Assembly: GCF_002750975.1 (NCBI RefSeq) | Contig: NZ_PEJS01000001.1 | Span: 3,100,001 to 3,164,000 of the forward strand | DNA from: Stenotrophomonas indicatrix | GTDB taxonomy: Bacteria > Pseudomonadota > Gammaproteobacteria > Xanthomonadales > Xanthomonadaceae | DNA: 64,000 bases | Direction: 5' to 3' | Shown here: positions 22,584 through 48,070 of the stretch, in pieces | Numbering within the stretch: position 1 is the first letter of the stretch | How the letters are laid out: each line of letters starts with the position of its first letter | Made by a program: the position numbers and the translations under genes | The notes under the pieces: generated by a model | What the model was told of the DNA's origin: nothing | The model's database searches: none | What the model saw: the letters and a program-made list of their open reading frames with translations, nothing else

Positions 22584-22919
22584 TCAAGCCCGTTCCGCCG
22601 GCTCCTTGTCGTCTTCTTCCTCTTCCTCTTCTTCGTATTCCTCGTCGTCCTCTTCTTCCTCGCCGTCTTCCTCTTCTTCGCCTTCCTCGTCCTCGTCGTA
22701 CTCTTCCTCTTCGTCGTCTTCGTAATCCTCGACGCCGAAGTCTTCACCGTCCCAGCGGCCTTCGCCGTCGGCGACGAAGGTCAGGGCCATGGCCGACGGG
22801 TTGGTACCGACACGGACCAGCCAACCACCGAAGACACGTGCACGCTCGGTGACCAGGTTGGCCTCGGAGCCTTCATTGCCCAGCTTTTCCCACTCCAGCG
22901 AAAACGCAAACTCGGTCAT
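22584..22919 (-). CDS. Small protein with a polyacidic C-terminal tail
   Basis: 111 residues. The first 65 residues look folded (MTEFAFSLEWEKLGNEGSEA... GGWLVRVGTNPSAMALTFVAD) and the last 45 are almost only Glu and Asp, with a few Tyr and Gly. No named family is recognised. Acidic tails of this kind mimic nucleic acid or bind basic proteins, but no function can be given. It follows aspS by 16 bases on the same strand and is probably cotranscribed. The plus-strand frame opposite it, rich in Leu and Phe, is an artefact of the repeated GAA/GAG codons. Confidence 0.75.
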   Translation of the reverse strand: MTEFAFSLEWEKLGNEGSEANLVTERARVFGGWLVRVGTNPSAMALTFVADGEGRWDGEDFGVEDYEDDEEEEYDEDEEGEEEEDGEEEEDDEEYEEEEEEEDDKEPAERA

Positions 22920-36224: not shown

Positions 36225-36590
36225 GTGCGGCCGGGCTGCGCCCGGCACCCGCTGTGGTGCCGGCCGCTGGCCGGCAACCTCAACAGCCACAGCCGAAGCA
36301 GAAGCGGGGTTCCTGTGGGATGGCGGGGTGGGTCCGGTTGCGGGGGACGCCGTGAATCCATCCCTGGAGGCTTGGCCGCGGCATCCATGCCGCGGACACC
36401 CCCGCAACCAGACCCACCCCGCCTTCGACAGATTTCAGCGAGCTGCGGGTACGGCGTTCGGTGCCGCTGTTGGTAGGTGTCGACCTTGGTCGACACAGTA
36501 GATCCACGCCATGCGTGGATGGATCTCCATCGGAATCGAATATTTCGACAGTGCATCAAAATGCGTCCACGCACGGCGTGGATCTACCTG
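36225..36590. repeat. Composite repeat element, copy B
   Basis: A SMAG unit after the ybaL stop, then the long cruciform with arms 36322-36346 and 36399-36423 (24 of 25 pairs), the TTCGACAGAT trailer, a GTCGACCTTGGTCGAC unit (36472-36496), a GTAGATCCACGCCATGCGTG unit (36497-36520) and a reverse version (36561-36588). The first core hairpin is diverged (CCATCCCTGG), the second is the same as in copy A. Confidence 0.9.
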
Positions 36591-47490: not shown

Positions 47491-47600
47491 TGGGTCGTGC
47501 GGGGTGGGCTGCGCAGGACACGCCGTAAACCCGTCCATGGGGGCTCGATGGCGCCATCCATGGCGCCAACGGTCCTGCGCAGCCCACCCCGCCCGGCCAC
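47491..47600. repeat. Composite repeat element, copy D (variant stems)
   Basis: Perfect 21-bp arms 47499-47519 and 47572-47592 surround a 52-base core, as in copy A. The arm sequence (GCGGGGTGGGCTGCGCAGGAC) differs from the others in its inner half but stays fully paired. Core hairpins are CCCGTCCATGGG (47530-47541) and TGGCGCCATCCATGGCGCCA (47549-47568), with the CATCCATG loop conserved and the stem changed on both sides. Confidence 0.9.
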
Positions 47601-47699
47601 GGACAGTTTCCTGCGGGCGCCAGCCACGGAAGAGAATCAAAAGATCAAAAGCAGAAGCCGGTCGCTGCGCTCTCAGGCGCCGGATCGCAGGCATCTGCG

Positions 47700-48070
47700 T
47701 GGTTGCCGGCCAGCGGCCGGCACTACCGACAGACATCCACGCATGGCGTGGATCTACTGTGTCGACCAAGGTCCCACTAGCAACAGGCCATGCCATTCCA
47801 ACAGATCGCGGAAATCTGTCGAAGGCGGCGTGGGTCCGGTTGCGGGGGTGTCCGCGGCATGGATGCCGCGGCCAAGCCCCCAAGGGTGAGGGCGCTTTGC
47901 TTGCGAAGCACTGCTTCGCAAGCGCCAGAACGCACAGCCGCCAGCGGCTGGGCCGGTCTGGGGGTTTACGGCGTCCCCCGCAACCGGACCCACCCCGCCA
48001 TCCCACCGATACCCCGCTTTTGACGTTGACGTTGACGTTGATTCGGCGGGTGCAGGGCGCAGCCCTGCAT
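47700..48070. repeat. Composite repeat element, copy C (reverse orientation, enlarged core)
   Basis: Reverse-oriented copy with arms 47824-47848 and 47975-47999 (24 of 25 pairs). Reading the minus strand, it carries the three-fold AACGTC run (48039-48022), the same core opening ACGCCGTAAACCC, an enlarged first hairpin region that includes a perfect 11-bp hairpin (47900-47922), the unchanged CCGCGGCATCCATGCCGCGG hairpin, the trailer TTCGACAGAT and GTAGATCCACGCCATGCGTG. The GTCGAC unit has lost a few bases. Confidence 0.88.

Follow-up and report, generated by a model that had tools for sequence, protein, structure and literature searches.

The window, by which we mean the whole 64,000-nt stretch of Stenotrophomonas indicatrix DNA analysed here, contains copies A, B, C and D of a self-pairing element, of which copy D is the main subject. 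In copy D, bases 47499-47519 pair with bases 47572-47592 without a mismatch, making a 21-bp arm around a 52-nt core. The features are as follows:

47499..47519, + strand: 5' arm of copy D, from the arm pairing
47520..47571, + strand: 52-nt core of copy D, a three-way junction in the predicted fold
47522..47544, + strand: hairpin H1 of copy D, made of a GCC/GGC stem, the bulge GTAAA (47525-47529), a CCC/GGG stem and the hexaloop GTCCAT (47533-47538)
47546..47571, + strand: hairpin H2 of copy D, made of CG/CG, an A.A mismatch, TGGCGCC/GGCGCCA and the hexaloop ATCCAT (47556-47561)
47572..47592, + strand: 3' arm of copy D, from the arm pairing
47602..47611, + strand: 3' flank motif GACAGTTTCC, which also adjoins many other copies of the same genome
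16795..16896, + strand: copy A, with 25-bp arms
36322..36423, + strand: copy B, with 24 of 25 arm pairs
47823..48004, - strand: copy C, the inverted partner of copy D, with its core interrupted in the H1 loop by about 80 nt (about 47882-47961)

Folded as single-stranded DNA, copy D reached -46.7 kcal/mol, against -22.1 kcal/mol (SD 2.9; z = -8.57) for shuffled sequences, and none of 200 shuffles equalled it. Beyond 21 bp the arm of copy D is broken, whereas pairing extends over 25 bp in copy A and over 24 of 25 positions in copy B. A first-pass annotation had claimed that the inner half of the arm differs between copies D and A and still pairs perfectly over 21 bp in D, and that the H2 stem changes on both sides, from CCGCGGC/GCCGCGG in A to TGGCGCC/GGCGCCA in D, at the same hairpin offsets and the same core length; both claims were confirmed. 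It had also described the loops of the two copies as the same, which is correct for loop 2 (ATCCAT in both) but not for loop 1, which reads ATCCAT in A and GTCCAT in D. On the reverse strand the H1 and H2 hexaloops of copy D read ATGGAC and ATGGAT, respectively. Hairpin-rich insertions of about 80-100 nt, such as that of copy C, were also seen in the H1 or H2 loops of copies at other loci (L388, L029, L036, L043 and L044), as if another small element targeted hairpin tips. Elsewhere in the window, the low-complexity direct repeats at 22588-22751 (family D1) are probably an acidic tract of a protein encoded on the - strand.

The 4.56-Mb genome gave at least 46 matches by blastn (best 40 of 130 candidates scored) and at least 148 copies by the covariance model R1 at E ≤ 0.001 (best 150 of 5174 candidates scored); follow-up counts were made on sequence taken from 145 of these 148 places. 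Among the 45 pairs of neighbours less than 1 kb apart, 44 were convergent and one was same-direction, and the gap was 154-215 nt in 38 of the 45. Quick gene calls placed 101 groups in intergenic positions, one of them flagged for an overlapping gene call. By the same calls, the outer gene ran towards the element in 41 of 57 single elements, the surroundings of single elements were convergent in 22 cases versus divergent in 5, and pairs lay between convergent (14), tandem (22) or divergent (6) genes. The widest-spaced pair (L132), inspected as a candidate version of the element with a gene of its own between inverted copies, encloses an aldolase-like gene, named by impression. In the left flanks of many copies (for example L022, L024 and L026), hexamer arrays of the (GCAACN)n type adjoin the element. 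The spacers of convergent copies repeatedly contain a palindrome centred on GGGGTCAGATCC (centres of L380-L389; flank of L003). Within the genus, the element was found with stricter filters in 31 of 41 genomes, this one included, at 1 to at least 105 matches per genome, and many named Stenotrophomonas records carry the same arms and cores. The arms within one genome share a family likeness.

The first-pass annotation had suggested a covariation test on many genomic copies, and we ran one on 51 distinct copies of this genome over 35 pairs. Standard pairs were formed by 97.5% of the 1785 cells as against 72.0% in shuffles, and both sides had changed in 26 of the 35 pairs. The covariation score was 0.608 versus 0.154, a value attained in none of 500 shuffles, in which the relatedness of the copies remains. 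When the partners were slid along each other, pairing fell to 40-47%. The number of further pair types was unexceptional in this set, being reached by 34 of 500 shuffles. From these results we conclude that the arm differences on the two sides are correlated.

Part of this change is by blocks. Two orthologous loci showed this in their left-hand copies, where the arm-core-arm cassette varies from strain to strain within the same flanks: the alleles keep the flanks and the outer arm and have cassettes of either the D or the A type, so that part of the difference between D and A is block replacement. The left-hand alleles had 39 both-sided paired, 15 one-sided and 3 both-sided unpaired cells at locus 1 (10 alleles) and 48, 14 and 11 such cells, respectively, at locus 2 (10 alleles). 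The arms of the right-hand orthologous copies were nearly constant, with few changes that were mostly one-sided (1 both-sided paired versus 14 one-sided in the 10 alleles of locus 1, and 8 versus 13 in the 11 alleles of locus 2), and this counts against a reading in which the structure is selected. Between copies with identical cores, isolated single-position differences of the arms were both-sided and paired in 127 cases, both-sided and unpaired in 7 and one-sided in 165, these counts being pairwise and non-independent. Deletion derivatives were seen at these two orthologous loci (L214, L215, L217, L396 and L398), that of L215 lying between short direct repeats, and the element is therefore lost as well as gained. 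The element is certainly a structured family with real compensatory change, and the earlier proposal that structure, not sequence, is selected or copied was supported in both of its words: the cassette swaps speak for copying, and the paired single changes, together with stems that covary between genera around fixed loops, speak for selection.

Outside the genus, a strict pattern of the element matched 30 of 369 genomes of the class, with up to 240 matches in one genome (G249), and the reversed control of this pattern gave no match among those listed. A loop-free pattern matched 18 of 398 genomes of the phylum and its reversed control 12 of 398, which is the chance background; 13 of the 18 genomes had the expected loops and all of these were Gammaproteobacteria, while the other five genomes, of which three lie outside the class, resemble chance matches. 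The named contigs among the matches listed belonged to Xanthomonas, Methylomicrobium, Methylotuvimicrobium, Methylomonas, Nitrococcus, Zobellella, Ectothiorhodospira, Marinobacter, Haliea, Saccharospirillum, Alteromonas, Microbulbifer and Thioalkalivibrio, among others, and the matches of the one actinobacterial record listed were without the structure. An arm score of at least 12 was reached by 137 of 181 distinct pattern elements, most arms being 25-31 bp long; the mismatch count excluded the remaining 44, among which are some chance matches, copies with insertions and truncated copies. Outside Stenotrophomonas, 78 distinct inner 12-mers were present in 96 elements, and the arms were unrelated between genera, yet paired with themselves. 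Searches of plasmids with a 94-nt query and of phages with a 54-nt query gave no blastn match. Three IMG/VR contigs matched the pattern, two of them YPAL-like with short arms.

A second covariance model, R2, was built from 49 elements, 46 of other loci and 3 of the window. In this set 95.7% of the cells were paired and the covariation score was 0.689 versus 0.186 in shuffles. Pairs changed on both sides numbered 19 versus 17.0 in shuffles, a count reached by 7 of 500, and further pair types were fewer than in shuffles (reached by 486 of 500); neither of these two measures is exceptional. R2 identified the family in 74 of the 369 class genomes and in 65 of 271 genera. In some lineages missed by the first pattern, the GCC/GGC stem itself changes in pairs, for example to GCG/CGC or GCT/AGC. 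Between genera, then, the stems covary, including the three-pair H1 stems, and the loops stay fixed. By reading of 92 loci, close pairs in other genera were convergent in 11 cases, divergent in 4 and same-direction in 5, a count that excludes two self-pairs with overlap and one tandem array of six copies. The array (L240, G582:C1:94445-95607) holds six same-direction copies with a period of about 227 bp.

The mismatches that remain in the arms gave strong evidence of strand polarity. With the strand as read for copy D called forward and the opposite strand of the element called reverse, the forward-strand arms of 126 copies of this genome had 40 A.C and 9 G.T mismatches, and those of the 137 elements had 170 A.C and 31 G.T. 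The other mismatches of the 137 elements were skewed as well (C.T 66 versus A.G 8, C.C 20 versus G.G 1 and T.T 18 versus A.A 6). Over the inner 18 bp, the 96 elements from outside Stenotrophomonas had 81 A.C and 14 G.T, and 24 further elements found by the model had 19 A.C and 5 G.T, with no skew between A.G (5) and C.T (4). Within H1 and H2 of the copies of this genome no polarity was seen (G.T 2 and A.C 1 in H1, G.T 9 and A.C 3 in H2). Folding of the forward strand predicts that G.T should be commoner; since A.C prevailed, the strand that folds is probably the reverse one, opposite to copy D as read. G.T is the better wobble in single-stranded DNA too. The RNA of the reverse strand folded lower in 112 of the 137 elements (mean of -77.7 versus -73.0 kcal/mol), and its minimum-energy fold kept the H1 hexaloop, open or closed by an end pair, in 81 of 137.

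This polarity did not depend on the direction of the neighbouring genes. In this genome the ratio of A.C to G.T was 11:1, 11:3, 4:1 and 14:4 for the several settings of flanking genes. In other genera, gene calls by a quick script on 108 of the 137 elements showed no orientation bias with respect to mRNA (sense 23, that is ++, and antisense 19, that is --), the remainder being +- (22), -+ (12), undecided (7) or inside crude ORFs that we took as spurious (25). The selected strand is therefore a property of the element and not of the host mRNA, and there is no clear sign that selection acts on read-through mRNA, single-stranded DNA being possible. Together the mismatches point to selection acting on one single strand, either RNA or single-stranded DNA.

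On the reverse strand both hexaloops read ANGGAN, and where the core is 52 nt long a spacing of 20 nt separates the two GGA triplets. Loop 1 was A.GGA. in 136 of 137 elements of the pattern set, for part of which the pattern itself constrained this loop, and loop 2 was A.GGA. in 86 of the 87 elements of that set with a 52-nt core. Among the 24 further elements, found with a model that favours such loops without forcing them, the two reverse-strand loops were A.GGA. in 24 of 24 and 23 of 24, and within this group the genomes missed by the pattern had the expected loops in 8 of 8. The positions that vary are the two N of ANGGAN. Passages of PMC7652899 report that RsmE contacts the A and the GGA of ANGGAN hexaloops and that CsrA bridges sites 10-63 nt apart. 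With two ANGGAN hexaloops 20 nt apart on the reverse strand, CsrA/RsmA is the most likely ligand of an RNA form, and by this resemblance of form it is a plausible candidate; the conserved bulge GTRAA and the junction are not accounted for by CsrA. A CsrA gene was found in 69 of 74 carriers versus 244 of 295 non-carriers (Fisher p = 0.028, kinship ignored), and among high-quality genomes in 60 of 61 versus 220 of 253 (Fisher p = 0.006, kinship ignored). The carriers with no CsrA match were G008, G069, G100 and G343, which are 67-88% complete, and G196, which is 98% complete. A passage of PMC7694677 reports no homologue of the classical sponge RNAs in Xanthomonas. The literature matches listed contained no link between YPAL/RU-2 and CsrA/RsmA, which is weak evidence that none is in print.

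A search of papers for 15-letter strings of the core showed that the RU-2 sequence of Y. pestis CO92, as printed in Table 1b of PMC2759123, contains the same core on the opposite strand, and we hold strongly that the core of the element is that of YPAL/RU-2. YPAL is described in excerpts of PMC2229807 as intergenic, multi-copy and of near dyad symmetry, and as mobile, with target duplications of 3-26 bp at or next to dyad symmetry. Comparison of L380 with L397 showed that one Stenotrophomonas composite also sits inside a REP-like palindrome, where a 10-bp direct repeat may have arisen by target duplication or have been left by a deletion between repeats. As to the mobiliser, a Y1 transposase (PF01797) was found in 29 of 34 carriers, this genome included, and was absent from G239, which has 20 pattern copies; a reverse transcriptase (PF00078) was found in only 13 of the 34 and not in this genome. 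Both were rejected as universal mobilisers, and no single one of these enzymes explains mobility among the 34 carriers.

We put at about one in two the probability that copy D is a YPAL-type, probably non-autonomous mobile element that is selected as a single-stranded hairpin and whose RNA may bind CsrA. Under this reading, copy D belongs to a family of dispersed non-coding repeats found throughout the Gammaproteobacteria, with a core shared with Yersinia YPAL/RU-2 (Rfam Ysr224). The sequences show that a three-way-junction core of 52-53 nt with two hexaloop hairpins stands on a stem, usually of 20-30 bp, in which any letters serve provided that they pair, and that one locus holds different arm-core-arm cassettes in different strains. 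The selected form would be an RNA or a single-stranded DNA hairpin bound by a protein that recognises the tips of both loops, these tips being presented by the outer stem, with CsrA/RsmA as the candidate ligand of the RNA form.

It is possible, though on balance doubtful, that a trans-acting transposase or recombinase seizes the hairpin of one strand as single-stranded DNA, as Y1 enzymes do with REPs, in which case ANGGAN would be the bases read by the enzyme and CsrA would be irrelevant. The preference for G.T as a wobble holds for such DNA as well, and the independence of polarity from gene direction, the lack of orientation bias in other genera, the dispersal of the copies, the locus with a 10-bp direct repeat in a REP-like palindrome and the mobility of YPAL with variable target duplications (excerpts of PMC2229807) agree with it. 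However, no enzyme was found, PF01797 being absent from G239 and present in only 29 of 34 carriers, there was no clean insertion among the loci compared, and the loops match the determinants of CsrA position by position. A mutational origin by quasipalindrome correction, in which one arm is corrected from the other during replication and paired changes need no selection of the fold, agrees with the pairing of about 97% of the arm cells and with the cassette exchange and deletion derivatives at orthologous loci. Such a DNA mechanism predicts equal numbers of A.C and G.T, whereas 170 and 31 were found, and the three-pair H1 stems covary between genera around fixed loops; we consider it unlikely.

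A role in 3' untranslated regions, with paired copies acting as a bidirectional terminator or as a stabiliser of mRNA, has been proposed for YPAL (PMC2229807). The direction of the outer gene towards single elements (41 of 57), the excess of convergent over divergent surroundings (22 versus 5) and the convergence of 44 of 45 close pairs are what this role would lead one to expect. However, a transcript reaching the first copy from the outer gene would contain that copy's non-preferred strand, polarity is independent of gene direction, the reverse-strand loops are left unexplained, and one copy in another genus (L440) sits beyond a terminator-like hairpin, so that we regard this role as very improbable.

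The preferred reading of a mobile, single-stranded hairpin would bring together, as a single structural family, a palindromic repeat of Yersinia, an sRNA listed in Rfam and the unnamed repeats of many genera of Gammaproteobacteria. It also names the strand that probably folds and offers a ligand that can be tested. Beyond what the first-pass annotation contained, the analysis added the opposite strand as the probable folding strand, the core of YPAL/RU-2/Ysr224 and the ANGGAN loops on that opposite strand. We suggest only tentatively that in about one fifth of the Gammaproteobacteria there is a mobile family of RNAs or hairpins which, as it spreads, preserves a two-loop site for the CsrA/RsmA dimer, either as CsrA decoys dispersed over the whole genome or as a selfish element exploiting CsrA; to date such a family would have been recognised only in Yersinia, as a repeat, and in Rfam, as an sRNA. 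If CsrA binds, a repeat family that in some genomes exceeds 100 copies would place a large hidden burden on a global regulator, or feed into it, in a branch for which no homologue of the classical sponge RNAs is reported.

Among known systems, the closest is YPAL/RU-2, which has core sequence and structure in common with the element, and the element shares with YPAL, which lies between genes close to stop codons or to dyad symmetry, an intergenic setting (by quick gene calls) and, at one locus, dyad symmetry. RU-2 is a unit of 168 nt, whereas the element is an arm-core-arm unit of about 94-104 nt whose arms and flanks differ from those of RU-2, with a variable stem mostly of 20-30 bp and, often, convergent pairs with SMAG-type REPs between them; in L047, an IMG/VR contig whose flank matches, the core has only 6 bp immediately on either side of it. 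The best Rfam match of copy D was Ysr224 (RF02770; E = 1.1e-4, 29.6 bits), which also matched L430 (E = 4.4e-5, 29.4 bits) and L281 (E = 0.02, 20.2 bits), all below the gathering score of 70, so that none is a member by Rfam's rule. The core aligned with Ysr224 nearly letter by letter; the strand that the Ysr224 model describes is the other one, not the reverse one, a point against the preferred reading. Excerpts of PMC12112432 describe Ysr224 as multi-copy transcripts in Y. ruckeri. For L281, a plant miRNA model (MIR1883, 40.7 of 128 bits) outscored Ysr224, presumably on the stem alone. At gathering score, the only Rfam match in the window was a tRNA, and in eight loci from other genera the only one was a TPP riboswitch.

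SMAG and other REPs are, like the element, intergenic palindromes, and lie in the same intervals (PMC2613905, in part). REPs measure 20-40 bp and bear a tag, GTAG or CGTC, on one of their ends, according to excerpts of PMC3733652; the element has a three-way junction and neither tag at its ends. The TwoAYGGAY motif (Weinberg 2010), listed for human gut, Gammaproteobacteria and Clostridiales in the part of PMC2864571 consulted, has two AYGGAY loops judging by its name; it was absent from the Rfam matches of three elements at E ≤ 10, its model perhaps being outside the set searched. The CsrA/RsmA sites of CsrB, RsmZ and mRNA leaders resemble the element in having ANGGAN hexaloops on hairpins, and its 20-nt spacing is within the 10-63-nt range. 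Families of the CsrB/RsmZ type gave no Rfam match in the window at gathering score, nor in three elements at E ≤ 10, and the element differs from CsrB and RsmZ hairpins in its dispersal, its conserved bulge and its long outer stem. Most CsrA SELEX hairpins have four or fewer contiguous pairs (PMC7652899, in part), as against seven in H2 here. A MITE of a DDE element was rejected, the arms being unrelated between genera where conserved terminal inverted repeats would be expected. The attC sites of integrons have conserved R and L boxes and a variable tip, and in the element this anatomy is reversed, with a conserved tip on a variable base.
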